DNA of 33,326 nt from Actinomycetota bacterium (GTDB lineage Bacteria; Actinomycetota; Actinomycetes; Actinomycetales; Microbacteriaceae), in NCBI GenBank assembly GCA_013297645.1, contig JAAFHU010000005.1, forward strand, positions 1 through 33,326, given 5' to 3'. The notes under the pieces are model-generated. The model searched no databases. It saw nothing but the letters and a program-made list of their open reading frames with translations, and was not told the DNA's origin. Position numbers and translations under genes: made by a program. Each line of letters opens with the position of its first letter. Positions within the stretch are counted from its first letter, which is position 1. Positions 1-19,277 of this stretch are shown one piece after another.

Positions 1-2
1 TC

Positions 3-50
3 GACCGCGCTCTCGAGATCTACGCCGAGGCCAACCGCGAGCTCGAGTGA
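3..50 (+). CDS. C-terminal end of an unidentified protein (partial)
   Basis: Frame 3 is open from the window edge to a TGA at 48-50 and encodes about 15 residues rich in Glu and Ala, ending in ELE. The helical, charged composition fits the end of a cytoplasmic protein, but nothing here identifies the family. It lies 25 nt upstream of the SRPBCC gene on the same strand. Confidence 0.5.
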   Translation, partial: DRALEIYAEANRELE

Positions 51-75
51 TCACGACATTGGCTACCCTGATCGC

Positions 76-519
76 ATGAGCCGCACCGGCACCTTCAGCT
101 ACGCGATCGATGCATCCTGCGACGCCGCGACGGCGAGCGCGCTGCTCGGCGACCCGCGTCGCAGCGGCGAGCTGCACCCGCTCATCCAGTCGGTGCACGA
201 GGTGGACGCGCAGCCCGGCGCTGTCGCCAGCTACCGCATCACCGACCTGCTGCCGCTCGGGCCGTGTCGATTGCGAATCGTCTACGAGGCCGACGTCATC
301 ACAGCGACCACCGAGGAGGTCGTCACCGTCGCCCGCCAACGGCCGGCAACGACGGTGCGCAACGAGACCCGCATCCGCGCGACGGATGACGGCGTCGCGA
401 TCGCGGTGACGATCACCATGGCTGCGCCGACCCTGCTCTTCGGCTACGCGTTCCGCACTGCGCGCGCAGCGCACCTCGAACTCGGCAAGCGCATCGCCGA
501 GCGGCTGTCGCGTTCGTAG
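76..519 (+). CDS. SRPBCC-family (polyketide cyclase/START-like) protein
   Basis: This 147-residue protein has the size and pattern of a single START/SRPBCC fold: an opening beta strand (TFSYAIDA), a helix, a run of beta strands with alternating hydrophobic residues, and a long C-terminal helix (residues about 122-145). Members bind hydrophobic ligands in a helix-grip cavity, and the ligand cannot be told from sequence. There is no signal peptide or membrane span, so it should be cytoplasmic. No Shine-Dalgarno is visible. A TACCCT at 64-69 lies 6 nt before the ATG, which suggests a leaderless mRNA. The gene ends convergently with the small reading frame at 540-665. Confidence 0.7.
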   Translation: MSRTGTFSYAIDASCDAATASALLGDPRRSGELHPLIQSVHEVDAQPGAVASYRITDLLPLGPCRLRIVYEADVITATTEEVVTVARQRPATTVRNETRIRATDDGVAIAVTITMAAPTLLFGYAFRTARAAHLELGKRIAERLSRS

Positions 520-539
520 GCGACGTCGATATTGGTGCG

Positions 540-665
540 CTACGCGCCAATGTCGACGGGCTGCGACGTCGTTCCGCCCGGCTCGATATTGCTCGGGTCA
601 CCCCAGCCGACCGCGGTTATCACGCCACTGGAATCAGCGGCGAAGACGGGGTGGATGTCTGTCAT
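540..665 (-). CDS. Small 41-residue protein of unknown function
   Basis: ATG at 665-663 is preceded by AGGAG 6 nt upstream, a good ribosome site. The frame encodes 41 residues beginning MTDIHPVFAADSSG and ending PVDIGA. The composition is soluble and mildly acidic, with Gly, Pro and Asp turns and no cysteine or membrane span. I do not recognise a family. A longer frame continues upstream to 1145, but its composition there is that of a shadow of the membrane-protein gene at 749-1684. The ribosome site is the main argument that this short version is real. It lies 83 nt downstream of that membrane-protein gene on the same strand and could be co-transcribed with it. Confidence 0.4.
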   Translation of the reverse strand: MTDIHPVFAADSSGVITAVGWGDPSNIEPGGTTSQPVDIGA

Positions 666-748
666 GAGAACTCCTGTGCAGATCGGTTGGTAACCGCCGC
701 CAGGGACTGGAGCAACTGATCTGACACTACGTGTCGCTCTGCCGCCGG

Positions 749-1684
749 CTAGGGACTTTGTGCCCCCGACGAGACCTTCTGCCGTGCCCCCGCCCACGCA
801 ACGATGAAGAGCACCGTGCCCAGCGGCACGGTGACCACGTAGAACAACCAGCCAGTCGGAATCGCCTCGGGAGCAGCCGTGATGAGAGCGAACGCTCCTG
901 TTGCGACCACGGGGATGACCAGCAACCGCCACAGTGATCTGTGCGGCGCGGGTCCGTCCGAGGCCAGCAGCGGGGCATCCGATGGCGCCGTGCGCGCGAT
1001 GGCGAACAGCGCGAGGCCCACCACCGCTGGCCCGATCAGCGTCACTGGGTTCGCGATGCCGTTTACGACAGCGAGCGCCACGAGCAGCACGATCGCTATT
1101 GCCGAACCACCGAGACTCGGGTTGGCGCGACCGCGCACACTCCACCAGATCGCGAGCCCGGCGGCATAGGCCGCGGTGGTCGCCACGGCGAAGAGGGCAT
1201 ACTCCGCCAACGGGGTGTGCACGCCCTCCTCAAACCGCCAGAAGCTCGCCCAGGCCCCGACGCCGAGACCGAGAACGGACAGCCGCACGAGCGACCCGCC
1301 CAGCGAACGCTCGAGCACCCTGGGCACCCACCACCAGCCGAGCAGCACGGTGAACAGGGCATGCCAGGCGAGCCCGGTATAGCTGATGCTCAGCGGCAGA
1401 TCCTCGACGACGGTGGTGACGAGCACTCCCTCGATGAGCCACCCATAGAGCGCGCCGACCAGAAAGACACGCTTCCAATCGGATGCCGCCACCCGCCACC
1501 GAAAGCTCACGTATCGCACGACCTGCACCGCGAGCCCGTAGCCGATCACCGTCTCGACGAAGCCGACCGCGGAGTCCTCGGGGCGCCATCGACCGTAGAA
1601 CCAGGACTCGCTCCACACCACGGAGGCGAGGGCGAGGCCCGCGGTCGCGGCGAACGACAGTGCCAGCCTGAGGGGTGCGCGCAT
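749..1684 (-). CDS. Multi-spanning membrane protein of unknown function
   Basis: The 311-residue protein has nine or ten hydrophobic segments spread over its whole length (for example residues 5-25, 70-90, 130-147, 195-230 and 250-300) and ends in a short polar tail. Loops rich in Trp, Tyr and Arg (WSESWFYGRWRPED near residue 25) are distinctive, but I cannot assign a family. An in-frame TGA lies two codons before the ATG, so the start cannot be further upstream. A GAGGG abuts the ATG, leaving poor spacing. The gene follows the heliorhodopsin gene on the same strand after a 97-nt gap, and a shared transcript is possible. Confidence 0.7.
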   Translation of the reverse strand: MRAPLRLALSFAATAGLALASVVWSESWFYGRWRPEDSAVGFVETVIGYGLAVQVVRYVSFRWRVAASDWKRVFLVGALYGWLIEGVLVTTVVEDLPLSISYTGLAWHALFTVLLGWWWVPRVLERSLGGSLVRLSVLGLGVGAWASFWRFEEGVHTPLAEYALFAVATTAAYAAGLAIWWSVRGRANPSLGGSAIAIVLLVALAVVNGIANPVTLIGPAVVGLALFAIARTAPSDAPLLASDGPAPHRSLWRLLVIPVVATGAFALITAAPEAIPTGWLFYVVTVPLGTVLFIVAWAGARQKVSSGAQSP

Positions 1685-1781
1685 CCCTCATCGTCATCCC
1701 CGAACGGGCCTGGTCGCATCCATCGCGAGTAGTACGCAACGACCTACGCGTCGGCACAAAGAATGACGCCGCTAGCGCCGG

Positions 1782-2588
1782 TCAGGAGCTAGTGATGGCC
1801 GGGATGATCGCCCCAGAGAACACCTGCCACGCGAGCGCGGTCTTCGCGACAAGGCTGAGCGTGATGTAGGTGCGCTCCCCATGGAGGTAGCTCGCCCACT
1901 TTCCGACCTGCTTGTACTGCAGCCACTGGTTTATCGCGAAGGTGTTGAAGAACAGGAACAGCGAGATCACGATGCCGACAACGAATCCCGGGGCGGAGAC
2001 ATCACTCGTCGTGCCCGGGCGCAGGAAGTAGATGAGGATGAGGATCCACGGCACGATTCCCACCATCGACCCGAAGATGAACGGCAGCAGCTTTCCCGTT
2101 CCCGGCTGCTCGTACTTCTCCTGGAGCGCTCCGAACAAGATCATCGCCGCGTTGACCGCGAACACAGCGAACAGGGCACCGATGTCGGTCACACCGTTGA
2201 TCGCGAGGATCAGCCAGATCATGATCGACGAGCTCAGCGAGTACTCGACCCAGCGAAAGTAGTTGCGGTTCTGCATGAGGCCGGCCTTGTAGCGCGGGAA
2301 GAACCACGGGCTCGAGATGAGGAAGTGGAAGAACGCGCTGAGGGCGAGGAAGGCGACGACACCGATGCCGATGTTCACCTCGAAGAGCGTTACCCGCTCC
2401 GGCGGAATCGGCACCCCGGGAGGCCCTGCCAGATAGTCGGCCGTGACGGCGAACAACACCTGAGTGCTGAGCATCGTGAGGACCACCGCGAAGCCGATGG
2501 CCTGAAGCAGGTGCAGGCTTCCGGCGACCAGGTTGTAGGTCCTCAGCCGATCGATCTGCTGATCCGATGTGTAGCTCTTCTTGGCCAT
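1782..2588 (-). CDS. heR: Heliorhodopsin (retinal-binding light-sensor membrane protein)
   Basis: This 268-residue seven-helix protein carries the family signatures. Helix 3 reads FRWVEYSLSSS with Glu115 at the Schiff-base counterion position. The last helix reads SLVAKTALAWQVFSG with Lys249 as the retinal-attachment lysine. The histidines of the retinal-side pocket are present (His26 in HLLQ, His88 in FHFLISS). Motifs NAAMILFGALQEKY and ISLFLFFNTFA also match heliorhodopsins closely. Heliorhodopsins sit inverted relative to type-1 rhodopsins and have a slow photocycle without clear ion pumping; a sensory or regulatory role is proposed for the family. AAGGGAG lies 8 nt before the ATG. No carotenoid or retinal synthesis genes are in the window, so retinal must come from another locus or from outside. 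Identification is very secure; the biological role is not. Confidence 0.96.
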   Translation of the reverse strand: MAKKSYTSDQQIDRLRTYNLVAGSLHLLQAIGFAVVLTMLSTQVLFAVTADYLAGPPGVPIPPERVTLFEVNIGIGVVAFLALSAFFHFLISSPWFFPRYKAGLMQNRNYFRWVEYSLSSSIMIWLILAINGVTDIGALFAVFAVNAAMILFGALQEKYEQPGTGKLLPFIFGSMVGIVPWILILIYFLRPGTTSDVSAPGFVVGIVISLFLFFNTFAINQWLQYKQVGKWASYLHGERTYITLSLVAKTALAWQVFSGAIIPAITSS

Positions 2589-2624
2589 GAGCCAACTCCC
2601 TTGTTAGTTCTGGGGCTGACGCTA

Positions 2625-3590
2625 TCACCGCGAGTGCGCGCGGTTAACAGTCAAGTCGACCTCGAGGCGGCCGTCAGCCCACGTCACGGGCAGCGGGTCG
2701 ATGATGCTGCCCACAAAACCACCCTCTCCGTCATAGTTCTCGAACGCGAGCAGCTGCCACTGTCCGGCGCGGTCTTGCACCAACGTGCCCACATAGAGGC
2801 GCTCATCGGTGAGACGGTAGGCATCCTCGAGCGAGAAGGGTCCGACGAGGCTGTCGGCGGCAAACGCCCATATGCCGCCTACCGGATCCTGGTCACTGCG
2901 CCTCTGTGCCAGCTCCGGCGCGAGGCAGGAGAAGATTCCAACGGCACGTCCGTCGACGAGAGCGGTTTGAAGCACCTCGACCTGCCCAAACCCGGCGCCG
3001 GGGTTCGATAGGGGCGGCTCAATCGTCCAGTGCGTGAGATCGGTTGAGGTCGCGTGCCCGATGACTCCGCGATCGTCGGGATCGCCATGGTTGGCGCGTG
3101 CGGTAATTAGCATGTGCCAGCCACGCTCACCGCGAAAGACCCACGGATCGCGCCAAGCCTGATCGGGCCACTCTCTCGACTCTGCGGTTTCGTACCAGCG
3201 GGAATCGGGCTCGAGAACCTGTGCGTCGGGCTCGCGGTGCCAGCTAAAGAGATCGTCAGAGACGACGGAGGAGATGCGCTGGCTAAGTCCGCCGTCTGCC
3301 CTGCTGACCCCGGTGTAGAACATGCGCCAGCGGCCATCGTCACCCTGAACGACCGACCCGGTCCAGGTCGCGAGATCATCGAAGGCCGGCGAGTCGCCAG
3401 CGACGACGGCATCGGCCTGCTCCGTCCAGGTGATGAGGTCCGTCGACGTCGCGTGACCGATGGAGGCGCGAAAGTGCCGACGGTTGGGATCGAGCAGAGC
3501 GCGGGAGGCCTTGAGGAAGAAGAGGTGGTACTGCTCTCCGTCGTCGGCGATCCAGAAGTCCCACACCCATGAGCTGGCGAGTCGAAACAT
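2625..3590 (-). CDS. GH32/GH68-like five-bladed beta-propeller glycosidase
   Basis: The 321-residue protein shows the three acidic sites of clan GH-J (fructan-active) enzymes: Asp11 in the N-terminal VWDFW (nucleophile position), Asp148 in WRDPW (the RDP transition-state stabiliser motif), and Glu205 in QVEVLQ (acid/base position). Repeated HATSTDL-TW and SDDLFSW motifs mark successive propeller blades. It lacks a signal peptide and the C-terminal beta-sandwich usual in GH32, so it would be a cytoplasmic single-domain enzyme. Relationship to GH68 or an unclassified GH-J subgroup is inferred; substrate is unknown. The frame is open upstream to 3947, but that part is low-complexity Arg/Ala shadow sequence. 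I chose the ATG at 3590 because homologous residues start there, although its ribosome site is weak. It ends 36 nt before the heliorhodopsin gene. Confidence 0.75.
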   Translation of the reverse strand: MFRLASSWVWDFWIADDGEQYHLFFLKASRALLDPNRRHFRASIGHATSTDLITWTEQADAVVAGDSPAFDDLATWTGSVVQGDDGRWRMFYTGVSRADGGLSQRISSVVSDDLFSWHREPDAQVLEPDSRWYETAESREWPDQAWRDPWVFRGERGWHMLITARANHGDPDDRGVIGHATSTDLTHWTIEPPLSNPGAGFGQVEVLQTALVDGRAVGIFSCLAPELAQRRSDQDPVGGIWAFAADSLVGPFSLEDAYRLTDERLYVGTLVQDRAGQWQLLAFENYDGEGGFVGSIIDPLPVTWADGRLEVDLTVNRAHSR

Positions 3591-3646
3591 GGTGCTCAGT
3601 CTTGCAGTTCGGCTCGCTCGGCGGCGCGAGGCGCTGAAGCCACCGA

Positions 3647-4162
3647 CTAGCGCGGCAGCTCGCGGTCCTTGAGGGCGAGCACGATCGACGGGATGCTGAG
3701 GGCCGCGGCCTCGAGCAACCAGAAGATGCCCATCACACCGTTGTAGCTCAGTGCCACGCGCCACGTGTCGGGGTCCTCCCCGAGCACGATGAAGGCGAGC
3801 AGGCCAGCGCTCGCGAGCAGCACCACGACTCCCCCGAACCAGCGGTAGGCATCCACATAAACGCTGTTGCGCAACGCGGTCTGTCGCTCGTCGAGGTAGT
3901 CCTCGGGCAGGTCGGCGATGAGGCGCACCGACATGCGCAGCAGCCACCAGACGACGATGCCGACGACAACCGCGAGGATGCCGGGGATCGACCCGAACAG
4001 CACCCAGGACAGCGGGATGACCGCGATCAGCGCGATCATGGTGACCGCCAGCGCGACCCGGGCGCGCCTCGTGCGCAGACCCGCGAACCGGTTATCGGCC
4101 ATGATCGCTTCCACCCGGGCCGCGACGGCCTCGTCGTTCTTCTCCTTACGCGATGTGCTCAT
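3647..4162 (-). CDS. Membrane protein co-encoded with an XRE regulator
   Basis: The 171-residue protein has a polar, charged N-terminus (about 35 residues) and four membrane spans (about 37-57, 60-80, 108-128 and 143-163), with the conserved-looking loop LPEDYLDERQTALRN between the second and third. Such proteins commonly follow small XRE regulators in actinobacteria and firmicutes, and the pair is presumed to act together, but the function is unknown. The ATG overlaps the end of the XRE gene by 17 nt, indicating translational coupling. Confidence 0.75.
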   Translation of the reverse strand: MSTSRKEKNDEAVAARVEAIMADNRFAGLRTRRARVALAVTMIALIAVIPLSWVLFGSIPGILAVVVGIVVWWLLRMSVRLIADLPEDYLDERQTALRNSVYVDAYRWFGGVVVLLASAGLLAFIVLGEDPDTWRVALSYNGVMGIFWLLEAAALSIPSIVLALKDRELPR

Positions 4163-4418
4163 CGTTTCCTCCTGCGCCAGTGAAAGGGTCGAGTGCGAAC
4201 AGCTCGCCGATGGGGGTGTCGAGTTGGCGGGCGATGCGCAGTGCGAGCGCGAGGCTCGGGCTGTACTCGCCCCGTTCGAGGTATCCGATGGTCTGGTAGT
4301 GCACCTCGACCGAATCGGCTAGCTCTTGCCGCGTGATTCCCCGGTCGACGCGAACGGCCTCGATCCGACTGTAGACCGGTTCTTCGGATTTCGGCTTGCG
4401 TCCCATGTAAAGCAGCAT
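4146..4418 (-). CDS. XRE-family helix-turn-helix transcriptional regulator
   Basis: A 90-residue single-domain Cro/C1-type protein. The helix-turn-helix runs from about residue 30 to 55 (RQELADSVEVHYQTIGYLERGEYSPSL), followed by ALRIARQLDTPIGELF, typical of the YozG/immR-like short regulators. There is no sensor domain. The start may be the ATG at 4418 or the ATG four codons later at 4406; neither has a clear ribosome site. A perfect inverted repeat at 4420-4435 abuts the first ATG and is the probable autoregulatory operator. It is co-encoded with the membrane protein that overlaps its 3' end. Confidence 0.88.
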   Translation of the reverse strand: MLLYMGRKPKSEEPVYSRIEAVRVDRGITRQELADSVEVHYQTIGYLERGEYSPSLALALRIARQLDTPIGELFALDPFTGAGGNDEHIA

Positions 4419-4419
4419 A

Positions 4420-4435
4420 AATGCTACATAGCATT
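4420..4435. promoter_or_regulatory. Probable XRE operator (perfect inverted repeat)
   Basis: AATGCTA-CA-TAGCATT is a perfect 7-bp inverted repeat with a 2-bp centre, in an AT-rich patch two bases upstream of the XRE start codon. The position and half-site size suit a Cro/C1-type dimer repressing its own gene. Seen directly; the binding protein is inferred. Confidence 0.6.
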
Positions 4436-4641
4436 ATTGCAACATCCACTCGCTCCAGAGCCGGCTGGCAGTGGGGAGCGCCGCGCAGAGCTGTTCTTCG
4501 CGCGCTGAACGGGGCGGCGGGGTGCGCCGGGCACACGGGAATCCCGAACGACGTAGTGTTGAGAACTCGTCCACGTGGGGCGCAGTGCACGATCAGCCGT
4601 GATGGTGTGCGCCTCGGAAAATATGGGGTGTCTCCCGTCGC

Positions 4642-6108
4642 ATGGAACAGAACATCGGCCTCCAGCATTACGACCTCGTCGTCATCGGCGCGGGACCGGC
4701 TGGCACGTCCGCCGCGATTCGCGCCGCCGAATTGGGCGCGCGCGTCGCTGTAGTTGAAGCGTCACGCACCGGCGGAACCTGCGTCAATACCGGCTGCGTT
4801 CCGACGCGAGTGCTGGCGAAGACGGCCAGGCTGGTGCGCGAAGTCCGCATCGCCCACGAGTACGGCATCGCAACGTCGGCGCCCGAAGTGCAGTGGGACA
4901 CCACGGTGACCCGGGTGCGCGCGACGGTCGACAAGGTGCGGTCCCTGAAAGACGAGCCCGGGCGGTTCGCGGCCTCGGGGGTTGAGCTGATCCTCGAGGG
5001 CCGGGCGCGGTTCGCCGATGCGAACACCCTCGTGCTCGACAGCGGCCGGCGAATCACGGCCGACTCGGTGATCATCGCAGTGGGCGGGCACTCCCGGCGA
5101 CTGCCGATCCCCGGGGCCGAGCTCGCGACGGTGCCGGAGCACGTGCTCGAGCTTCCATCGCTCCCGCGTCGAGTCGCGATCATCGGCGGCGGCAACACCG
5201 GGGCTCAGCTCGTGACCGTGTTCAGCTCGTTCGGATCCGAGGTGGCAGTGCTGGATGTCGCGCCGAGAATCCTGGCGGCATCCGACAGCGAGGTTTCCGC
5301 TGCCGTCTCGACCGCCTTCGCGGAGCAGGGCGTTGCCGTTCACACCGGCCTGGATGGTGTCGACAGCTTGGTGACGTCGGCAGACGGCTCGATCACGCTT
5401 ACCTGGCGCGCCGGCGGGCACTCCGTCGAGCGCGAGTTCGATGCCGTCATCATGGCGACCGGGTGGCCTGCCGATGTCGACGACCTCGGCCTTGAGAATG
5501 CCGGAATCACAACGGTGCGATCCGCGATCCCCGTCGACCAGTACTTCCGTAGCGTCGTGCCGCACATCTACGCGGTCGGGGACGCAAACGGCCGCGACAT
5601 GCTGGTGCAGGCCGCGCATTTCGAGGGCGAGGCGGCAGCAGAGAACGCGGTTCTCGATGCGAACCGGCGCACCCCCCACCACCTTCTTCCCGCCGGCGGC
5701 TTCACCGACCCCGACTACGCCGGGGTGGGACTGACCGAGGAGCAAGCACGCGAGCGAGACCCGCACTGCATCGTCGCAACGGTGCCGTTCACCGAGCTCG
5801 ACCGTGCCGTGATCGACGACCGCTCCCGTGGCTTCCTGAAGCTGATCGCCGATCGCCGCCGCGAGCTGATCCTGGGGGCGCACGCCGTCGGCGAGAATGC
5901 AATCGAGGTCGTGCAGTCCGTTACCACCGCGATGGCTGCCGGAATCGACGTGTCGACGCTCGCCGGGGTGAAATTCGCGTATCCGACCTACAGCGCGGTC
6001 ATCGGGCTCGCCGCACGCGGCCTGCTCGCACAGGGCGCAGCTTCGCTGGAGGGCTCGGTGACACCGAGCTGGCCGGTTCGGGGCTGTCGCTCACGCCCGG
6101 CGCAGTAG
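4642..6108 (+). CDS. FAD/NAD(P)-dependent pyridine nucleotide-disulfide oxidoreductase (mercuric/lipoamide reductase-like)
   Basis: The 488-residue protein follows the class I flavoprotein disulfide reductase plan. It has an FAD Rossmann motif (VVIGAGPAGTSAA, residues 13-25), a redox CxxxxC pair (Cys47 and Cys52 in GGTCVNTGCVPTR), a second Rossmann motif for NAD(P)H (IIGGGNTGAQL, about residue 182), a second FAD contact (IYAVGDANG), and a C-terminal dimerisation domain. The usual C-terminal His-Pro-Thr..Glu dyad is replaced by AYPTYSAV. There is no MerA-type vicinal Cys pair at the C-terminus and no N-terminal heavy-metal domain. It is therefore neither a standard lipoamide dehydrogenase nor a standard mercuric reductase, and the substrate is unknown. 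Its last 18 nt overlap the convergent gene at 6091. Confidence 0.85.
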   Translation: MEQNIGLQHYDLVVIGAGPAGTSAAIRAAELGARVAVVEASRTGGTCVNTGCVPTRVLAKTARLVREVRIAHEYGIATSAPEVQWDTTVTRVRATVDKVRSLKDEPGRFAASGVELILEGRARFADANTLVLDSGRRITADSVIIAVGGHSRRLPIPGAELATVPEHVLELPSLPRRVAIIGGGNTGAQLVTVFSSFGSEVAVLDVAPRILAASDSEVSAAVSTAFAEQGVAVHTGLDGVDSLVTSADGSITLTWRAGGHSVEREFDAVIMATGWPADVDDLGLENAGITTVRSAIPVDQYFRSVVPHIYAVGDANGRDMLVQAAHFEGEAAAENAVLDANRRTPHHLLPAGGFTDPDYAGVGLTEEQARERDPHCIVATVPFTELDRAVIDDRSRGFLKLIADRRRELILGAHAVGENAIEVVQSVTTAMAAGIDVSTLAGVKFAYPTYSAVIGLAARGLLAQGAASLEGSVTPSWPVRGCRSRPAQ

Positions 6109-6795: not shown

Positions 6796-7497
6796 ATGCA
6801 CCAAGACCTCGTCGTCGATGCCCACGGCATCGGCAAGGAGTACGGAAGGGGCGCCGCCCGCTTCAGCGCCCTCAGCGACGTGACGCTGCAGATCGCCCGC
6901 GGTGAGTGCGTGGCCATCGTCGGCAAGAGCGGATCGGGCAAGTCGACCCTGATGCACGTGCTCGCCCTGCTCGACGCCCCAGATACCGGCAGGCTCAGCA
7001 TCGACGGCGTGGACACCCGCCAGCTCTCTGCACGCCAGCTCACCACGCTGCGCAACCGCACCTTCGGCTTCGTGTTCCAGCAGTTCTTCCTGACGCCCGG
7101 CACCTCGGTGCTCGACAACGTCACGCTCCCGCTCGAGATCGGCGGCACGCCCCCGCGCCAGCGGCGTGCGCGCGGAATGGCCGTGCTCGAACAGCTCGAG
7201 CTGGCAGACAAGGCCCGCAGCAACGCCAATGACCTCTCCGGCGGCCAGAAGCAGCGGGTGGTCATCGCCCGCGCCCTGGTCGGCGAACCGAGCGTCATCT
7301 TCGCCGACGAGCCGACCGGCAACCTCGACAGCGCCACCGGCGCGATCGTCGAAGAGACCCTCTTCTCGCTCAATCGCGATCGCGGCATCACCCTCATCGT
7401 CGTCACCCACGACGAGGACCTCGCCGCCCGCTGCGATCGGCAGATAGTCCTCCGTGACGGCGTCGTCGTCTCCGACAGCGCGGCGGTGGCAGCATGA
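6796..7497 (+). CDS. ABC transporter ATP-binding protein (MacB/LolD type)
   Basis: The 233-residue ATPase has Walker A GKSGSGKST (about residues 43-51), a Q-loop (FVFQQFF), the signature LSGGQKQR, Walker B VIFADEPTGNLDS and the H-switch VVTHDED. The architecture and the TGNLDS motif are those of the MacB/LolD/FtsE branch, whose ATPases power mechanotransmission complexes that export peptides, antibiotics or lipoproteins rather than moving substrates through the membrane channel. AGGAG lies 9 nt before the ATG. The stop overlaps the permease start (ATGA), so the two subunits are coupled. Confidence 0.95.
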   Translation: MHQDLVVDAHGIGKEYGRGAARFSALSDVTLQIARGECVAIVGKSGSGKSTLMHVLALLDAPDTGRLSIDGVDTRQLSARQLTTLRNRTFGFVFQQFFLTPGTSVLDNVTLPLEIGGTPPRQRRARGMAVLEQLELADKARSNANDLSGGQKQRVVIARALVGEPSVIFADEPTGNLDSATGAIVEETLFSLNRDRGITLIVVTHDEDLAARCDRQIVLRDGVVVSDSAAVAA

Positions 7498-8789
7498 GGG
7501 CCACCGACCTGGTCGCCAAGGCGGCGCGCAACACGGTGCGCAGCAAGACGCGAACGACGCTCACCGTGCTCGCGCTGTTCGTCGGCGCGTTCACCCTCAC
7601 CCTCACGACCGCTGTCGGCGCCGGGGTCACCGACTATGTGACCAAGCAAGTCGACTCGCTCGGGGCCGACGATGTATTCGTCGTCACCCGCACCGCTGCC
7701 GCGACGACCGACGGACCGGTCGCCTACGACCCCGAGACGTCATCCGCGTCGACGGGCACCACGGCGCCTGCGCTGCCCGGGGCCTCCGGCAGCGACCCCC
7801 TGACCGAGGGCGATCTGGATGAGCTCGCGGCGTTCGACGGCATCCTCAGCGTCGACCCGATCCAGGTCGCCGCCGTGGACTACGTGCGCTACGACGGCGG
7901 CAGCCGCTACGAGCTGACGATCAACCCGACCTCGTCGATCACCCGGTCGGATCTCGTCGCGGGCGAGCAGCTCGATTCGTCAGCGGGCGCCGGCCAGGTG
8001 ATGCTGCCGTCGGACTACGTCGACGCGCTCGGATTCGCCAGCGCCGAGGAGGCGGTCGGCAGCGTCGTCACCCTCGGCATCACCGACGTGCTGGGCGTGC
8101 AGTCCACCGTTGATGCCACGATCGTGGGTGTCTCCCGCGAGTCGTTGCTCAGCTCGGGGGCCGGAGCCAATACGGCGCTCGTGGCGGACCTCGTCGAGGT
8201 GCAGTCCGCCGGCGTCGACACCGGCGACCCGCGGTACGCGATCGCCGTCGCCCGTTTCGACGCCGACCTCAGCGCGGACCAGGTATCGGCCCTCAAGGCC
8301 GACATCGTGGACGCCGGCTACGGCGCTCAGACGATCCAGGACCAGCTCGGCGTGATCAAGACCGTGATCGACGGCATCATCGGAGTTCTCAACGCCTTCG
8401 CCGTGGTCGCCCTGCTCGCCGCCGCCTTCGGCATCGTCAACACACTGTTGATGAGCGTGCAGGAGCGCACCCGCGAGATCGGCCTGATGAAGGCGATGGG
8501 CATGCGCAGCGGCACGGTCTTCGCCCTCTTCAGCCTCGAGGCCACCGTCATCGGGTTCCTCGGCAGTGCGATCGGCGCGGGCGTCGCGATCCTGCTCGGC
8601 ACCGCCCTCAACGGGGCGCTCGCAGCGGGTCCGCTGGCGGCGCTGTCGGGGCTGAGCATCCTGTTGTTCGAGCCGGGTGCGATCCTCGGCATCATCCTGC
8701 TCATCATGGTGATCGCCTTCCTGGCGGGCACCCTGCCCGCCGCTCGGGCGGCCCGGAAGAATCCGATCGAGTCACTACGCTACGAATAG
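7494..8789 (+). CDS. ABC transporter permease (MacB/FtsX type)
   Basis: The 431-residue permease has one N-terminal membrane span (about residues 20-45, TLTVLALFVGAFTLTLTTAVGAG), a large extracellular domain (about 50-275), then three C-terminal spans in an FtsX domain (GIVNTLLMSVQERTREIGLMKAMGM is the diagnostic coupling segment; last span near 400-420). It ends in the usual ARKNPIESLRYE. The extracellular domain contains a Ser/Thr/Gly-rich linker (about 75-100). As the partner of the ATPase just upstream it forms a type VII ABC exporter. Substrate is unknown; the adjacent TetR gene suggests induction by a toxic or signalling compound. Confidence 0.93.
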   Translation: MRATDLVAKAARNTVRSKTRTTLTVLALFVGAFTLTLTTAVGAGVTDYVTKQVDSLGADDVFVVTRTAAATTDGPVAYDPETSSASTGTTAPALPGASGSDPLTEGDLDELAAFDGILSVDPIQVAAVDYVRYDGGSRYELTINPTSSITRSDLVAGEQLDSSAGAGQVMLPSDYVDALGFASAEEAVGSVVTLGITDVLGVQSTVDATIVGVSRESLLSSGAGANTALVADLVEVQSAGVDTGDPRYAIAVARFDADLSADQVSALKADIVDAGYGAQTIQDQLGVIKTVIDGIIGVLNAFAVVALLAAAFGIVNTLLMSVQERTREIGLMKAMGMRSGTVFALFSLEATVIGFLGSAIGAGVAILLGTALNGALAAGPLAALSGLSILLFEPGAILGIILLIMVIAFLAGTLPAARAARKNPIESLRYE

Positions 8790-13965: not shown

Positions 13966-14061
13966 GTCTTTATCCTCGCAGCGCGGCAGGCGATCGCGAT
14001 GCCGCGATGGGTGTCAACGCCATCAAGCGCCTCGCTCAGGTCTTCGGATGCGGAAACCAAA

Positions 14062-14083
14062 AACCCCCGGCTGACCGGGGGTT
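14062..14083 (-). terminator. Intrinsic terminator, original terminator of tRNA-Arg
   Basis: AACCCCCGG-CTGA-CCGGGGGTT forms a 9-bp stem with a 4-nt loop. On the minus strand it is followed by a T-rich run (TTTTTGGTTT). It lies 27 nt beyond the 3' end of the partial tRNA copy, in the tRNA's orientation, so it is most simply the native terminator of the tRNA that has been separated from its 5' half by the inserted element. Confidence 0.8.
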
Positions 14084-14109
14084 GTGAATCTCTTCTGACT
14101 GAGACTGCT

Positions 14110-14156
14110 TGGTGCGCCCGGAGGGATTTGAACCCCCGGCCTATTGATCCGTAGTC
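14110..14156 (-). repeat. Left attachment-site copy: 47-bp duplicate of the tRNA-Arg 3' part
   Basis: This segment is identical over 47 bp to 26486-26532. It corresponds to tRNA-Arg positions 30-76, from the end of the anticodon stem through the anticodon loop to the encoded CCA. Identity stops sharply on both sides. It lacks the acceptor 5' strand and D-arm, so it is not a functional tRNA. Confidence 0.92.
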
Positions 14157-14310
14157 GAAGGTCGTCTCCCCGGAGTTATGTGGAAGTTGCCGATATTCCG
14201 CCAAAGCACTGGTGACTGAGAGCGACCTCGATGACGCGAGTTGACCAGAATGTTCTCCATGTGTAGGTGAAATGTGGGCAGAGCCATTTCTGACGAATCC
14301 TCCATGAACG

Positions 14311-14340
14311 AGTCCCCGGCCGCGTTTCCGGCCGGGGACT
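14311..14340 (-). terminator. Strong hairpin after the Cys-rich peptide gene
   Basis: AGTCCCCGGCC (14311-14321) and GGCCGGGGACT (14330-14340) form a perfect 11-bp stem with an 8-nt loop, 10 nt after the stop of the Cys-rich peptide gene. There is no clear U-run, as is common for actinobacterial terminators. It probably ends the cmtR transcript. Confidence 0.75.
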
Positions 14341-14350
14341 CTAGAGGCTG

Positions 14351-14416
14351 TTAGCAGCAGACGCACCCTTCGGCGCAGTCGGTCGTGCAGCAGCTGGCGT
14401 CACAACATTCAGTCAT
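14351..14416 (-). CDS. 21-residue Cys-rich peptide, putative micro-metallothionein
   Basis: The ATG at 14416-14414 has GAGGAGG at 5-nt spacing, among the best ribosome sites in the window. The frame encodes only 21 residues, eight of them Cys (positions 4, 5, 9, 10, 14, 18, 20 and 21), in CC, CC, C, C and CC groups with acidic and small residues between (starts MTECCDASCC, ends EGCVCC). No aromatic residue, membrane span or signal is present. This spacing would let it wrap a small thiolate metal cluster as bacterial metallothioneins do; mycobacterial MymT is a larger known example. It starts 36 nt after the CmtR-like gene on the same strand and is followed by a strong hairpin, so regulator and peptide form a compact operon. 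Cd(II), Pb(II), Zn(II) or Cu(I) binding is inferred. Confidence 0.75.
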   Translation of the reverse strand: MTECCDASCCTTDCAEGCVCC

Positions 14417-14452
14417 GGTTGCCTCCTCTCCGTCCCGTTGTTTGCGGGCGGT

Positions 14453-14803
14453 CTACACGGGATCGCAGCATCCCGGTACCTCGCAGCTTCCATCGAGGCA
14501 AGGTGCGCCTTCGTCGACTGCGAGTACGACATTGACCAAGGCGGCGAGGGCTTGGGTCAGGTGTGGGTCGGCGATCTCATACCTCGTTCGTCTACCTTCT
14601 GATTCGGCGGTGACGAGTCCGCACCCGCGCAGGCAGGCGAGGTGATTGGAGACATTCGTTCTGGTGAGCTCGAGATCCTGAGCGAGTTCGGCCGGGTAGC
14701 CAGGACGCTCGAGCAGGCTCAGCAGGATTCGTGATCGTGTGCCGTCGGCCATGGCACGGCCGAGTCGATTCATCACGTCCACCCGAGAAGCAATAGTCAG
14801 CAT
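14453..14803 (-). CDS. cmtR: CmtR-type Cd(II)/Pb(II)-sensing ArsR-family repressor
   Basis: The 116-residue winged-helix protein matches mycobacterial CmtR, including the metal ligands: Cys57 and Cys61 in the recognition-helix motif NHLACLRGCGL, and Cys102 in the C-terminal APC. These are the three thiolate ligands of M. tuberculosis CmtR at the same numbers. Upstream motifs LGRAMADGTRSRIL and LTRTNVSNHL are family-typical. The C-terminus carries three further Cys (107, 112, 113) not explained by the known site. When metal binds, the repressor should leave DNA and derepress its own operon, here the Cys-rich peptide rather than the usual P-type ATPase. The ATG appears leaderless, about 7 nt from a TATAGT. 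Confidence 0.9.
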   Translation of the reverse strand: MLTIASRVDVMNRLGRAMADGTRSRILLSLLERPGYPAELAQDLELTRTNVSNHLACLRGCGLVTAESEGRRTRYEIADPHLTQALAALVNVVLAVDEGAPCLDGSCEVPGCCDPV

Positions 14804-14809
14804 GTGATG

Positions 14810-14827
14810 ACTATACAGTGAATACTG
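14810..14827 (-). promoter_or_regulatory. cmtR promoter -10 and overlapping operator-like palindrome
   Basis: On the minus strand TATAGT (14815-14810) sits 6 nt before the cmtR ATG, implying a leaderless mRNA. Directly upstream is CAGT-GAAT-ACTG (14816-14827), a short palindrome in the -10/-35 spacer, the normal place for an ArsR-family operator. No clear -35 is visible. Confidence 0.5.
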
Positions 14828-14884
14828 ACCTATTGGAGGACAGAGCTCTCCCCTCAGTGGAGGGTGTGCTTTTTGAAACTCGGC

Positions 14885-15049
14885 CTACTTGCGGCGCGGG
14901 TTCCTCAGAGCCCGGAGCAGTCCGCGCACGCGACGGTACCCACGAGCACTGCGTCCGAACACAACTGCGTAGAGCAGCGGTGCCATGAGCAGGATCGCGA
15001 GAACGTCAGGGGCGTTGCTCACCAGGATCTCAAGCAGCTTGGGGAACAT
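14885..15049 (-). CDS. Small single-span membrane protein, 54 residues
   Basis: ATG at 15049-15047 with GGAGGAAA about 6 nt upstream. The peptide has a hydrophobic helix (NAPDVLAILLMAPLLYAVVFG, about residues 12-32) and a strongly basic tail (RSARGYRRVRGLLRALRNPRRK) expected to stay in the cytoplasm. No family is recognised. The gene begins about 170 nt downstream of a strong promoter that is followed almost at once by an intrinsic terminator, so its expression may depend on antitermination, or it may use a separate weak promoter in 15050-15175. Confidence 0.55.
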   Translation of the reverse strand: MFPKLLEILVSNAPDVLAILLMAPLLYAVVFGRSARGYRRVRGLLRALRNPRRK

Positions 15050-15175
15050 AGCGTTTCCTCCACTGTGAGCCGACGGCGAATGCCGCCTACCCCTCGGTAT
15101 CAAGGGGAGCTGAAAGAGCCGAAGAGTCGGCCGCCCGTTTGAGCAGCTCGGAGCCGCAATCCAGAAAGCGGGCAT

Positions 15176-15217
15176 AAAAAAACCCGGAACAATGTCCGGG
15201 CACGCACTATGGGCGTG
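15176..15217 (-). terminator. Tandem hairpins ending in an intrinsic terminator close to a promoter start
   Basis: On the minus strand, CACGC/GCGTG (15217-15213 with 15205-15201) forms a 5-bp hairpin. It is followed directly by TCCGGA-type stem CCCGGA/TCCGGG (15200-15195 with 15188-15183) and a run of seven T (15182-15176). RNA started at the promoter at 15252-15223 would end after only about 40 nt. This could be a tiny non-coding RNA or an attenuator ahead of the 54-residue protein gene. Confidence 0.6.
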
Positions 15218-15222
15218 AACAA

Positions 15223-15252
15223 AGAATAAGGGCCGTTGGGTTCTTTTGTCAA
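15223..15252 (-). promoter_or_regulatory. Near-consensus housekeeping promoter
   Basis: On the minus strand, TTGACA (15252-15247), an 18-bp spacer and TATTCT (15228-15223) make the best sigma-70-type promoter I found in the window. Initiation is expected near 15216, at the base of the tandem hairpins. Confidence 0.65.
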
Positions 15253-15273
15253 CCTCGGTCGAAGGGAGGATAG

Positions 15274-15384
15274 ATGGAAGCCGTGAGTAGGGTGGCCGCT
15301 CGGCCAATGGCGGCTGCCCGCTGGGGCGCGGCGCGTCTGATTTTCGACACCCACAAGTTCCTGAGTTTTCCGCGATCGGCATGA
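15274..15384 (+). CDS. Possible 36-residue peptide
   Basis: ATG at 15274 has GGGAGGA 4 nt upstream and opens a 36-residue frame (MEAVSRVAARPMAAARWG at the start, SFPRSA at the end), basic and alanine-rich. It begins beyond the minus-strand promoter at 15223-15252 and ends 42 nt before the DUF1232 gene. There is no homology I recognise; the ribosome site is the only support. Confidence 0.25.
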   Translation: MEAVSRVAARPMAAARWGAARLIFDTHKFLSFPRSA

Positions 15385-15426
15385 CACTCGCCCTGCGCGC
15401 CCGAATGCCCCAATAGGCTTCCCGGA

Positions 15427-15837
15427 GTGGAGTGGTGGCAGATCTTTCTCGGCGTGGCGGGCGGCCTCCTGCTGCTCTGGCTCGTGCTGATCGCCGCTCT
15501 CGCGTGGGTTTCCCGCGGACAAGCCGAGAAGCTCAAGCTGATCGACGCTCTGCGGCTTGGACCGGACGTGGTGCGCCTCACCCGCCGCCTAGCTGCAGAC
15601 CCGACCGTTCCCCGCGGGGTGCGCATCTGGCTTATCGTGCTGCTGGTCTACCTACTGCTGCCGATCGACCTAGTCCCCGACTTCATCCCGGTAATCGGCT
15701 ATGCGGACGACGCGATCATCGTGGCGCTCGTGCTGCGATTTGCTACTCGCCACGCGGGTGCAGACGCCCTCGACCGCCACTGGCCCGGCACGCCGCAGGG
15801 CCTGCAAGCGCTGCGCTCAATCACTGGCCTCACCTAG
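15427..15837 (+). CDS. DUF1232 (YkvA-like) membrane protein
   Basis: The 136-residue protein has an N-terminal span (about residues 5-28) and the DUF1232 core RIWLIVLLVYLLLPIDLVPDFIPVIGYADDAIIVALVLR (about 64-102), which includes the diagnostic P-I-D-L-V-P-D-F-I-P. The function of the family is unknown; members are small membrane proteins. The start is a GTG with a poor ribosome site, and the frame does not offer a better one. It is the only confident plus-strand protein gene inside the element and converges with the DUF305 gene over a shared hairpin. Confidence 0.85.
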   Translation: MEWWQIFLGVAGGLLLLWLVLIAALAWVSRGQAEKLKLIDALRLGPDVVRLTRRLAADPTVPRGVRIWLIVLLVYLLLPIDLVPDFIPVIGYADDAIIVALVLRFATRHAGADALDRHWPGTPQGLQALRSITGLT

Positions 15838-15854
15838 CAGGCGCGATCTGTTGA

Positions 15855-15885
15855 GGCGGGCGCGGCATCGAGTGCCGTGCCCGCC
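15855..15885. terminator. Bidirectional terminator between convergent genes
   Basis: GGCGGGCGCGGC (15855-15866) pairs with GCCGTGCCCGCC (15874-15885), a 12-bp stem with one G-T position and a 7-nt loop. It stands between the stops of the DUF1232 and DUF305 genes and can serve both. Confidence 0.7.
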
Positions 15886-15902
15886 CCGCCCTGCGAATAG
15901 GT

Positions 15903-16508
15903 CTACTTGAGGGTGCCGAGGATGTCCGACATCTCGGTGATCTCTGCCGACTGGCCGGTGACGATCGCGTTGGCGAGTTTGATCGCGTCGGGATTCTCTC
16001 CGTCGCTGATCTCGGTCTTCGCCATCGTGATCGCACCCTGGTGGTGGGTAGTCATCTGCTCCAGGAACAGCTTCGACGCCTCGACTCCGGTGGCTGCATC
16101 GAGGGCAGCCATGTCGTCGTCGGACATCATCCCTTCGCCCATGCCGCCCATTCCCGACATCGAATCCATAGGGCTGCCCCAGGTTTCCAACCAAGCTGTC
16201 ATCTCGACGATCTCGGGGTCCTGTGCGGCCTTGATCCTTGTGGCAAGGTCGATGACCCTCTGGTCGATCCCGTCTTTCGCGAGGATCATGCCGGCCATCT
16301 CGACTGCTTGCTGGTGGTGCGGAACCATGCCCATGGCGAACGCAACATCGGAGTCATTGAAGGCTTCCGTGTTCTCGGAGGACGACGACAGTGCGGATGA
16401 ACTGCTGTGGTCCATCCCACCCATGGTCGTGGTTGTCGAGCATGCGGACAGGGTGATGACTGTGGCGAGAACGCCGACGATCGTGAGGGTTGAACGAAGT
16501 TGTGACAT
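15903..16508 (-). CDS. DUF305 lipoprotein, metal (copper)-associated
   Basis: The 201-residue protein has a lipoprotein signal (hydrophobic residues 8-20, lipobox LSAC with Cys23), then two ferritin-like DUF305 halves. The first has FAMGMVPHHQQAVEMAGMIL and the second LEQMTTHHQGAITMAK, each giving a double-His motif, with a Met/Gly-rich linker (MDSMSGMGGMGEGMM). The family is frequently encoded in copper resistance loci and is thought to bind metal outside the membrane; the detailed function is unknown. It follows the DUF6153-like gene after 70 nt on the same strand and is probably the last gene of the transcript controlled from the copper-type operator at 17127-17141. Confidence 0.93.
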   Translation of the reverse strand: MSQLRSTLTIVGVLATVITLSACSTTTTMGGMDHSSSSALSSSSENTEAFNDSDVAFAMGMVPHHQQAVEMAGMILAKDGIDQRVIDLATRIKAAQDPEIVEMTAWLETWGSPMDSMSGMGGMGEGMMSDDDMAALDAATGVEASKLFLEQMTTHHQGAITMAKTEISDGENPDAIKLANAIVTGQSAEITEMSDILGTLK

Positions 16509-16578
16509 GCGTGTTTTCCTATCAGTTGAGGTGTGAGTTTTCAGCGCGCGGAATCGCCCGGGGTTTGGGCTCGCCGGA

Positions 16579-17019
16579 TCACGTCCTGCTGATGGAGAGT
16601 GCGTTCAGATCTGGTGGCGGCATCGCGGCTATCGCGACGGCGACAATCGCCAGCCAACGATTGCCGACGGCCGTGAAGAAATTTGACCATCTGCGGGAGG
16701 CCGAAATCGCGAGTACGAGTGCTGAGAAGAGCAACGCGAGCACGCACGCCATGTTCGCCATGATGTGGTCTGAGCCGCACATCCCGCCACAGTCGGTGGT
16801 TGTCTCGGCCGGGGTAGGAGCTACGTCGCCGTGACTTTCTGGGTGGCTAATGTCGGCTGACATGACGGATGTCGTTGTCATGTGCTCGCCCGAAGCTGAC
16901 GAGATGGTGTGCATCGCGAGTAACCCAATGAGCACTCCGCAGACCAACGCCAGAATAAGAACGGCGCGCCCGATTACCCCTGGCCGCAAGGCCAGCGCCC
17001 TGAAACGCATCAATGTCAC
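16579..17019 (-). CDS. DUF6153-like small membrane protein with Cys/His/Met motif
   Basis: The protein (146 residues from the GTG at 17019) has a first membrane span (about 20-38, VLILALVCGVLIGLLAMH), an extracellular loop with HMTTTSVMSADISHPESHG and DCGGMCGSDHIM, and a second span (about 100-125). The His, Met and Cys-x3-Cys residues lie outside and could bind metal. The GTG overlaps the TAG stop of the 31-residue gene by one base (TAGTG), and GAGG lies 10 nt upstream, so I prefer it to the ATG three codons later. The open frame reaches 17211, but the extra part is Arg/Pro-rich shadow sequence crossing the promoter. Such proteins are often found beside DUF305 genes. Confidence 0.75.
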   Translation of the reverse strand: MTLMRFRALALRPGVIGRAVLILALVCGVLIGLLAMHTISSASGEHMTTTSVMSADISHPESHGDVAPTPAETTTDCGGMCGSDHIMANMACVLALLFSALVLAISASRRWSNFFTAVGNRWLAIVAVAIAAMPPPDLNALSISRT

Positions 17020-17114
17020 TAGTGCACTACCTCGCAGAGGAGTACCACCGTGATTGCTGCCAGCAGCGGGGTGAGGAGTCCGGAGATTGCAATCCGGCTC
17101 GCGTCGTCGTTCAT
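17019..17114 (-). CDS. 31-residue membrane peptide, leader of the DUF6153-DUF305 operon
   Basis: ATG at 17114 opens a 31-residue frame: a polar start (MNDDASRIA) and one hydrophobic span (ISGLLTPLLAAITVVLLCEVV) ending in Cys-Glu-Val-Val-His. The stop overlaps the next start as TAGTG, a coupling arrangement that supports translation. No Shine-Dalgarno is present, but TACGCT lies 8 nt upstream of the ATG, so the mRNA may be leaderless. Function is unknown; the terminal Cys and His might touch metal. Confidence 0.5.
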   Translation of the reverse strand: MNDDASRIAISGLLTPLLAAITVVLLCEVVH

Positions 17115-17122
17115 TGTTCGCA

Positions 17123-17141
17123 AGCGTACCCCCTAGGGGTA
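17123..17141 (-). promoter_or_regulatory. CsoR/RicR-like copper operator overlapping a -10
   Basis: TACCCC-CTA-GGGGTA (17127-17141) is a perfect 6-bp inverted repeat with a 3-bp centre and matches the known pseudo-palindrome of Cu(I)-sensing CsoR-family repressors. Its edge overlaps TACGCT (17128-17123, minus strand), a fitting -10 for a leaderless start at 17114. No csoR gene is in the window, so the repressor would act in trans. Copper control is inferred from the operator and from the DUF305 gene downstream. Confidence 0.7.
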
Positions 17142-17217
17142 TTTTGGGGATTCGACGATGACCGAGCCGCCTCGGGATGGAATCTGGGCACGGCAGCAAT
17201 TCTGGGTTCACCGATCT

Positions 17218-18600
17218 TCATTCGGATCGGCTTGAGTTCGGTGGTTGTTCGGGCTGAATGGGGAGAAGCGCTTTGACCTCAAGACCGGTGCCGACGGTGT
17301 TCACGAGGGTTAGTTTCCCGCCGGCGACCTCAACGAGCGCTGACACGATTGCCAGCCCTAGCCCGGAACCACCCGCAACTCGAGCCGAGTTGGCTTGGGA
17401 GAAGCGGTTCAGTGCGTGGGGCAGGAATGCCTCGTCCATCCCGCCAGCGTCATCCTTCACCGTGAGCACCACGTTGCCCGCATGCTGCGCAAGGTCGAGG
17501 ACTACCGTGCCGCGAAATCCCATCGCCGCCAGTGCGTTCTCGACGAGATTGCTGCACAGCCGACCGAAGTCATTCGCGCTGATCTGGACCCGACTCTCCC
17601 CTGTCGCCAGTGCGGAGTCGTATTCGATTTGGATGTCTCTTGCTCCAACGTGGCGCCTGCCACGATCGGCAGCATCCGCCAACTCCCTGCTCAACTCTTC
17701 GAGAGTCGCCGATCCGGGAACCGTCTGCGCTTCAATGCGCGACAGCTCAAGCATCGACGTCGCGAGTGCAGCTAGGCGCGCAACGGTCGCTTGAGCTGCC
17801 CTGACGTCGCCTTTCATTTGGGAGAGCGATGAGGCATCCGCCTGAGCGAGCTCAAGCTGGGTCTGCAGGATAGAGATCGGGGTTCGGATTTCATGGCTTG
17901 CGTCCGACACGATTTGGCGCTCTCTGTCGTTCGACTCGCGCATTTGCTCGATGAGTTCGTTGAGAGTCTCTGCGAGTTCGGCAATCTCGTCGTGGGCAGG
18001 GCCGACCGGAAGCAGTTCTCTAGTTGGAGATCGAACTAGCTTCTCGGCGCTCCGCCGGAGTCGAGTCACGGGGCTGAGCACCGCATTTCCGATCAACCAG
18101 GACGCGCCTCCGAAGGCGAGATTGATTGCAGCGATGCTCGCGACCAAGAGAACTGCAACCTGATTGAGCACGGATTGCTGGATGTCGTTGGCGCTTGCTG
18201 CGATCACGCTCCATGTGCCTTGTGGCGTCGAAACCGCCGTTACCCGCACAAGGTAGGAAGCCGAGTCGACCGAGAGAGTGCGAGTGCCCTCCGACTTCGC
18301 TAGCTCGGTGGTCGTGCCCGCCAGCGCGGCAGGCAGCGTGTTGACCTGGGGAGTACCGGAGGGGTTCACGACAGCGACCATCTGGCTCGCCCCGGGCGGG
18401 TCAAACGCCTCGGTCGGCTCCAGTGCCAAAGCAGACAGATAGGGCGCTTCGACATTCGCGAGCACTGCGACCTGCCCATCCGAGACGATGCGCTGAACCT
18501 GGCTGAAGATGAGGATGCCAGCGGCCACAGAAACCAGCGCCGCAATGAGCAGGCTTCCGCCGGTGATCCGGGTGCGGATGCCGAGGCGCGACCAGATCAC
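17218..18600 (-). CDS. Sensor histidine kinase (first two-component system)
   Basis: The 460-residue kinase has a span at about 13-34, an extracellular sensor domain (about 35-143), a second span (about 146-172), a HAMP linker, a dimerisation/phosphoacceptor domain with His236 in SDASHEIRTP, and a catalytic ATPase domain (N-box NLVENAL, G-box GGMDEAFLP and GSGLGLAIVSAL). The sensor domain has no Cys cluster or metal-rich motif, so the signal is unknown. The GTG start overlaps the response regulator stop by 4 nt. It belongs to the operon PAP2-COG4705-regulator-kinase. Confidence 0.95.
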   Translation of the reverse strand: MIWSRLGIRTRITGGSLLIAALVSVAAGILIFSQVQRIVSDGQVAVLANVEAPYLSALALEPTEAFDPPGASQMVAVVNPSGTPQVNTLPAALAGTTTELAKSEGTRTLSVDSASYLVRVTAVSTPQGTWSVIAASANDIQQSVLNQVAVLLVASIAAINLAFGGASWLIGNAVLSPVTRLRRSAEKLVRSPTRELLPVGPAHDEIAELAETLNELIEQMRESNDRERQIVSDASHEIRTPISILQTQLELAQADASSLSQMKGDVRAAQATVARLAALATSMLELSRIEAQTVPGSATLEELSRELADAADRGRRHVGARDIQIEYDSALATGESRVQISANDFGRLCSNLVENALAAMGFRGTVVLDLAQHAGNVVLTVKDDAGGMDEAFLPHALNRFSQANSARVAGGSGLGLAIVSALVEVAGGKLTLVNTVGTGLEVKALLPIQPEQPPNSSRSE

Positions 18601-19277
18601 TTGGACACGGCCGCGAGCTGAAACCCCACACCGCGGGAGTTGACGATTCGCAGAGGCGCGCCAACGGCCTCCAGTTTCTTGCGCACGTACCTGACGTACT
18701 GGTCGACGATGTTCGCGTCGATGTTCTCAGGTGATCCCCACAGCGATTCCAGGATCTCGGCTCGCGGGATCAGCCTGTCCATGTTCTCGGCAAGCAGGCG
18801 AAGCAGATCGAACTCGGTGCGGCTGAGTCGAAGTTCATTCCCATCGCAGGTGATCTGGTGTCGTGTCAGGTCGATGCGAAGGCGATCGATGTCAATCCGG
18901 CTGGCGCCGATGGCGTCACGTCGCCGCAGCGCGCGGAGCCTGGCGGCCAGCTCAGCGAACATGAAGGGCTTGGTGAGGTAGTCGTCCGCGCCGGCGTCCA
19001 GGCCTCGTACGCGGTCGTCGAGAGCGTCTCTCGCTGTGAGGAGAAGAATCGCGATCCCGTGGGTGTGCTCGCGCAGTCGCCGGCAGAGCTCGAATCCCGA
19101 CATCCCTGGCAGCATGACGTCGAGAACGGCAAGGTCGTAGGCGTTTTCGTTGCTGAGCGTGATGGCGTCAATGCCGTTGTCGGCAAGGTCGACCGCGTAG
19201 CCCTCCGCGCGTAGCCCGCGGGCGAGGAGAGCCGCCATCTCTGGCTCGTCCTCTACGACGAGTATGCGCAGGGCCAC
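18597..19277 (-). CDS. OmpR/PhoB-family response regulator (first two-component system)
   Basis: The 226-residue regulator has a receiver domain with the acidic pocket ED-E at 9-11, phospho-acceptor Asp53 (AVLDVMLPG) and Lys in LTKPF, then a C-terminal winged helix (LRLSRTEFDLLRLLAENMDRLIPRAEILESLWG, then YVRYVRKKLE). The GTG start has GAAGGG upstream. It follows the COG4705 gene after a 36-nt gap and overlaps the kinase gene by 4 nt. The genes it controls are not known; the PAP2 promoter region is the nearest candidate. Confidence 0.95.
   Translation of the reverse strand: MALRILVVEDEPEMAALLARGLRAEGYAVDLADNGIDAITLSNENAYDLAVLDVMLPGMSGFELCRRLREHTHGIAILLLTARDALDDRVRGLDAGADDYLTKPFMFAELAARLRALRRRDAIGASRIDIDRLRIDLTRHQITCDGNELRLSRTEFDLLRLLAENMDRLIPRAEILESLWGSPENIDANIVDQYVRYVRKKLEAVGAPLRIVNSRGVGFQLAAVSK

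Follow-up and report, generated by a model that had tools for sequence, protein, structure and literature searches.

The function of heliorhodopsins (HeRs) is often guessed from their operon neighbors. Elsewhere, in a different species each time, HeR has been reported to partner with a glutamine synthetase, a photolyase, or an ABC transporter (PMC9529153, PMC9769723, PMC11109279; here and below, published work is cited from the available parts of each paper). Ten classes of neighbor are given in the available text of PMC11109279: glutamine synthetase (GS), NAD synthetase, photolyase, MerR, TerC, ABC transporter, SDR, alpha/beta hydrolase, DUF2177, and DUF2238. Other frequent neighbors include glutaredoxin and glutathione peroxidase genes (PMC8612252).

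The HeR gene described here lies in a 33,326-nucleotide window (the whole stretch of DNA that was analyzed), which corresponds to contig C185 of G000, a metagenome-type assembly of 2.45 Mb in 239 contigs with 83% completeness and 0.8% contamination. Its product belongs to the same photoreceptor family as the HeRs encoded with glutamine synthetase, photolyase, or ABC transporter genes and may share their mode of action, but those HeRs have the partner in their operon (PMC9529153, PMC9769723, PMC11109279), whereas none of the ten classes in the available text of PMC11109279 occurs in the same-strand block around the window HeR (749-4418). From upstream to downstream, this block codes only for an XRE regulator, a 171-aa membrane protein, a GH32-N glycosidase, HeR, and a membrane protein, TM_749. 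The opposite strand has ABC transporter genes at 6796-8789, 4.2 kb from HeR. None of the frequent neighbors in the available text of PMC8612252 (glutaredoxin, glutathione peroxidase, and others) was found beside the window HeR. The features of the locus are:

4146-4418, minus strand: XRE-type HTH regulator, 90 aa, overlapping the 171-aa membrane protein gene by 17 bp; not conserved with HeR
3647-4162, minus strand: 171-aa membrane protein (TM4_3647), no family match; not conserved with HeR
2625-3590, minus strand: GH32-N-like glycosidase (GH), 321 aa, upstream of HeR with a 36 bp gap; not conserved with HeR
2619-2627, minus strand: probable extended -10 element TGATAGCGT, predicted from sequence and comparison
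2596-2602, minus strand: ribosome-binding site AAGGGAG, identified by eye
1782-2588, minus strand: heliorhodopsin (HeR), 268 aa, ATG start; open reading frame with Pfam, NCBIfam, and PDB matches
1765-1779, minus strand: terminator-like hairpin with a T-rich tail, 2 nt past the HeR stop codon; a consensus match only
749-1684, minus strand: ~10-helix membrane protein TM_749, downstream of HeR with a 97 bp gap; not conserved with HeR

An earlier note on this DNA had named the gene a heliorhodopsin, and profile searches agree by a wide margin. The open reading frame matches Pfam PF18761 (Heliorhodopsin) with an E value of 2.8e-93 and 312 bits against a cut-off of 26.7 (profile positions 1-241 of 242), and the NCBIfam equivalog NF038020 with 340 bits against a cut-off of 100 (positions 1-244 of 244). 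It is the only PF18761 match in its own assembly. The HeR 48C12 (PDB 6su3 and 6su4, with near-identical matches 9ljj and 6uh3) is of the same family and aligned with residues 10-265 of the window HeR, nearly its whole length (E 3.3e-90, 306 bits); all 11 mapped residues are identical, and the alignment gaps, of 3, 1, and 1 residues, are all in the first quarter. Residues K249, E115, H26, and H88 correspond in the pairwise alignment to 48C12 K241, E107, H23, and H80, with K241, the equivalent of K249, being the retinal (Schiff-base) lysine in helix 7. The retinal lysine, counterion glutamate, and pocket histidines had been described as conserved, and K249, E115 (the helix 3 counterion), H26, and H88 are indeed invariant in 81 of 81 aligned HeRs, as are the seven further positions tested (11 of 11 in all). 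In 48C12, E107 is the main counterion and H23 and H80 are not essential (PMC6951262). Twelve chosen homologue pairs gave dN values of 0.05-0.08, dS values of 0.55-1.04, and dN/dS ratios of approximately 0.05-0.14, which together with the invariant residues indicate strong purifying selection on HeR. Judged by its sequence, this is an intact and strongly conserved canonical type-3 (heliorhodopsin) photoreceptor that should bind retinal, given a retinal supply, and that is expected to have the inverted topology of the family (cytoplasmic N-terminus). The functional photoreceptor anticipated earlier is to this extent supported by the intact, conserved protein, with retinal binding a prediction conditional on supply. 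The window HeR is a further member of a well-known family, and the gene itself is ordinary.

Comparisons with other loci used the best 80 of 483 HeRs confirmed in species genomes, with HeR identities of 68-92%; these loci span 3.2-16.8 kb, and many flanks end at contig ends. A tree constructed with a quick method placed the window HeR in a starred clade of 31 rows, of mixed genera and dominated by Microbacteriaceae, which is consistent with the Micrococcales genome proposed earlier. HeRs from Cryobacterium, Salinibacterium, Microcella, and others (L001-L027) are 84-92% identical to the window HeR and many have the extended -10 layout, but no relative of the window's HeR-adjacent genes occurs in their available flanks. 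A recent transfer of HeR was considered, but with a clade that mixes genera and nucleotide identities to the window HeR reaching 85% at most, no recent donor is shown. HeR was above cut-off in 43 of 249 family genomes and matched in six of 60 genomes (own included; one of the six matches is weak and partial), and five congeners (one, G002, 63% complete) had no match for HeR or type-1 rhodopsin, a pattern compatible with either gain or loss. No HeR was found in viral contigs by a method that detects close relatives only. Two plasmid records carry HeRs that are 41-43% identical; the HeR annotated on a 10.5-kb Lactococcus petauri plasmid (NZ_CP141705.1:4149-4943) has 43% identity. One HeR placed among actinobacterial HeRs in the tree (L072) comes from a contig titled as an Acidobacteria MAG, which reflects mis-binning or transfer.

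Patterns upstream of the gene suggest that HeR probably carries its own extended -10 promoter. The TGA within TGATAGCGT (2627-2619) doubles as the GH stop codon, and transcription predicted to start at ~2611 would give a leader of 23 nt. Of 78 rows (the window plus 77 loci), 39 have the motif TGNTANNNT within 25-60 nt upstream of the start codon, whereas 500 mononucleotide shuffles of all 78 upstreams averaged 1.07 such rows and never exceeded 4; L025, L027, and L072 were left out of this count because their match does not start at residue 1. Among called genes of the same loci, 29 of 822 have the motif upstream; HeR calls are among these genes, and their start positions are predictions. We chose the motif visually, from upstream regions as far as L044, and it is present in 32 of the 43 rows inspected beforehand but in only seven of the 35 that were not inspected. 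When the 39 upstreams were aligned on the motif, 31 had an A at the predicted start distance and no conserved -35 was found; a sigma-70 two-hexamer scan with a -35 requirement returned 0 promoters, with 0.5 expected.

Downstream, terminator-like sites follow 17 of 81 HeRs, compared with a mean of 1.35 and a maximum of 3 in shuffles (n = 40) and with 41 of 834 among all called genes. Within the 4.3 kb scanned in the window (500-4800) there are six such sites against 2.3 expected. Half of the rows (39 of 78) lack TGNTANNNT and 64 of 81 loci lack a terminator-like site, so self-containment is a tendency only. These counts, too, are not independent, given the number of closely related loci. HeR would thus tend to be mainly its own transcription unit, with a 36-bp GH-HeR gap that allows read-through. 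HeRs are predicted to share a promoter with a neighbor in 38.6% of cases, and the pattern within Actinobacteria is 18.8% (PMC11109279); these figures are in line with mostly solo HeR genes. In Aurantimicrobium photophilum, HeR transcripts increase in darkness and are similar to those of carotenoid genes (PMC8591293, in part), a pattern that by analogy fits regulation of HeR apart from its neighbors, without showing it. No title on HeR promoters or on neighbor turnover was found in the literature searched, which was available in part, and no priority is claimed.

Three descriptions of the neighboring genes required revision. The "GH32/GH68-like enzyme" has a GH32-N match (58 bits, cut-off 22.1) and is corrected to GH32-N. 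The "10-span" protein at 749-1684 has ~10 helices in a single-sequence model of low confidence (mean pLDDT 50) and matches nothing in Pfam or NCBIfam, even at E 10. The "XRE pair" proved to be one XRE protein overlapping the gene of the 171-aa membrane protein. TM_749 was also tried as a hidden carotenoid enzyme and rejected, having no family match at E 10 and no plasmid match, with a model too poor for structure search. Elsewhere in the window, two histidine kinase/response regulator pairs are present on the minus strand at 17218-19277 and 21418-23036, 15-20 kb from HeR, alongside ABC-2 transporter genes at 23609-26206. The lowest G+C in the window (0.60-0.64 per kb) is at 14001-18000.

We searched the 80 HeR loci for relatives of these neighbors to see whether any are kept with HeR. 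There was no relative of GH, TM_749, TM4_3647, the XRE regulator, or the more distant SRPBCC-like, TM_6091, and FtsX proteins in any of the 80 (tblastn, E 1e-5; many flanks are short). Matches to the flavin reductase (two of 80 loci) and the ABC ATPase (10 of 80) have just 27%-36% identity and are probably paralogues. Homologues of GH occur in 23 of 60 genomes (own included), 20 of which have no HeR match at all, and GH adjoins HeR in its own genome only and in none of the four clearly HeR-bearing relatives among the other 59.

Turnover of the surrounding genes was counted by comparing the six nearest called genes among 58 rows, made up of the window and 57 loci, each having two or more called genes on either side. 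Loci L003 and L068 were dropped from neighbor clustering and from this count because no HeR was called there. In clustering and turnover, a shadow ORF (3114-3572) stood in for the GH gene, which the gene caller had missed; the tblastn search used the GH protein directly. Any near gene was shared by 15 of 17 locus pairs at HeR identities of at least 95%, 23 of 87 at 90%-95%, eight of 186 at 85%-90%, 11 of 159 at 80%-85%, 25 of 864 at 70%-80%, and seven of 340 below that, counts that are not independent, the loci often being close relatives. The window shares no near gene with any of the 15 closest loci listed. Gene context is kept among near-identical HeRs and mostly lost under 90% identity. 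The counts stand without a matched control gene, so we make no claim that HeR moves more than average.

These results bear on the proposal that GH, HeR, and TM_749 form an operon specific to this lineage, with HeR acting as a light-dependent regulator of the glycosidase or the membrane protein, as it does for glutamine synthetase or the ABC transporter OmrDE in other species. The three genes are on the same strand with gaps of 36 and 97 bp, and published partners are operon neighbors of HeR (PMC9529153, PMC11109279, in part). A GH13 alpha-glucosidase gene, named by eye, also precedes HeR in some Rhodoluna-type loci (cluster c1), so a sugar-enzyme neighbor is not unique to the window. Against the operon are the lack of relatives of these genes in all 80 loci, the 20 genomes that have GH homologues without HeR, the probable promoter overlapping the GH stop codon, and the terminator-like hairpin preceding TM_749, and we consider this arrangement unlikely. 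The Rhodoluna-type loci with HeR after the GH13 gene are L053, L057, L058, L062, L063, L065, and others (named from one cluster member), and in several Rhodoluna-type loci HeR is followed by a LacI-like regulator, again named by eye from one cluster member.

The earlier note had regarded any of the same-strand neighbors as potentially informative unless conserved in no relative, and among the relatives examined none of them is conserved with HeR. A local partner for HeR was rejected on the basis of these comparisons. Because HeR appears to be self-driven in changing surroundings, the adjacent genes probably give no clue to its role, and the glycosidase, the membrane proteins, and the XRE regulator are probably bystanders.

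We therefore favor, as the likely reading, a self-contained HeR gene with its own extended -10 promoter and lineage-varying neighbors, whose partner is encoded elsewhere. Retinal, whatever its origin, would be bound at K249 and isomerized by light; a slow photocycle would then alter the cytoplasmic loops of HeR, and the changed cytoplasmic face would modulate a protein encoded elsewhere. A broader version, put forward only tentatively and judged less likely than not, is that HeR spreads in Microbacteriaceae and their relatives as a solo cassette (promoter, gene, and sometimes terminator) into unrelated sites and has a target in trans that is common to many genomes, with retinal from an enzyme yet to be discovered.

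Retinal supply was addressed in 37 HeR genomes: the genome of the window, four relatives, and the genomes of 32 of the 80 loci (completeness of the latter not given). A beta-carotene cleavage enzyme elsewhere in the genome, to which the earlier note had looked, did not appear; the 83%-complete MAG has no match to Blh (PF15461) or RPE65 (PF03055), although a type-1 rhodopsin and a carotenoid cluster are present. The type-1 rhodopsin (G000:C161:9626-10471, L162; PF01036, 137 bits) adjoins a MarR regulator gene named by eye. The carotenoid cluster on contig C158 codes in a row for a polyprenyl synthase, a phytoene synthase, an amine-oxidase-type desaturase, two lycopene-cyclase domains, and a UbiA prenyltransferase; UbiA beside two lycopene-cyclase domains is the layout of C50-carotenoid clusters. 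Lycopene cyclase domains were found in 38 of 42 genomes (the 37 HeR genomes and the five congeners). Blh is present in 10 of the 37 HeR genomes and an RPE65-type oxygenase in none, compared with two of 14 control genomes. Neither enzyme was matched in 27 of the 37. A type-1 rhodopsin occurs in 24 of the 37, the window's own genome among them (eight of the 10 with Blh and 16 of the 27 with neither enzyme), and in 0 of five congeners. No other gene family was shared beside type-1 rhodopsin in more than six of 20 stretches examined, four of which are from Blh genomes.

The lack of Blh and RPE65 matches and the C50-type cluster layout would both suit an organism that is unable to make retinal and in which HeR is usually an apoprotein. 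We find this improbable, given that the assembly is just 83% complete, that HeR is under strong purifying selection, that a type-1 rhodopsin is present, and that among the other HeR genomes searched 26 of 36 also have no Blh match and 36 of 36 no RPE65 match. Retinal has been measured in Aurantimicrobium minutum, which makes it without blh or known genes (PMC7734400), and exogenous retinal, argued for in Luna-1 (PMC12422013), is a further possible source. Both A. minutum and the window organism are rhodopsin-bearing actinobacteria without a known retinal-forming enzyme, but the former has measured retinal (PMC7734400, in part) and the latter is known from an incomplete MAG alone. In view of the A. 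minutum and Luna-1 reports, as available, the missing enzyme is no proof for or against a working HeR.

A helper role for HeR toward a photolyase, as in Trichococcus, where HeR helps the photolyase encoded in its operon (PMC9769723, in part), was considered because of two genes on contig C173. The last 205 bases of C173 match window positions 1-205 at 202 positions, so C173 probably adjoins the left end of the window. It codes side by side for two photolyase-type proteins (DPRP, 256 bits; FAD_binding_7, 84 bits; G000:C173:13027-15928, L149), which, with the two contigs joined, would be 4-7 kb from HeR. A DPRP-like protein is found in three of five congeners at only 39%-41% identity. Despite the precedent and the proximity, a helper role is very unlikely and the photolyase link was rejected, as there is no operon, two plus-strand genes intervene (a MarR-like one, named by eye, and 76-519), and the C173 proteins matched in only one of 80 HeR loci (L020, 38% identity).

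The self-contained gene with a partner elsewhere thus remains the favored reading. Across the 80 closest loci found, the neighbors vary, the protein stays, and the promoter motif is present in half, which argues for looking genome-wide for HeR partners in this group. The genomes surveyed also bring further examples to bear on how actinobacteria lacking blh obtain their retinal.
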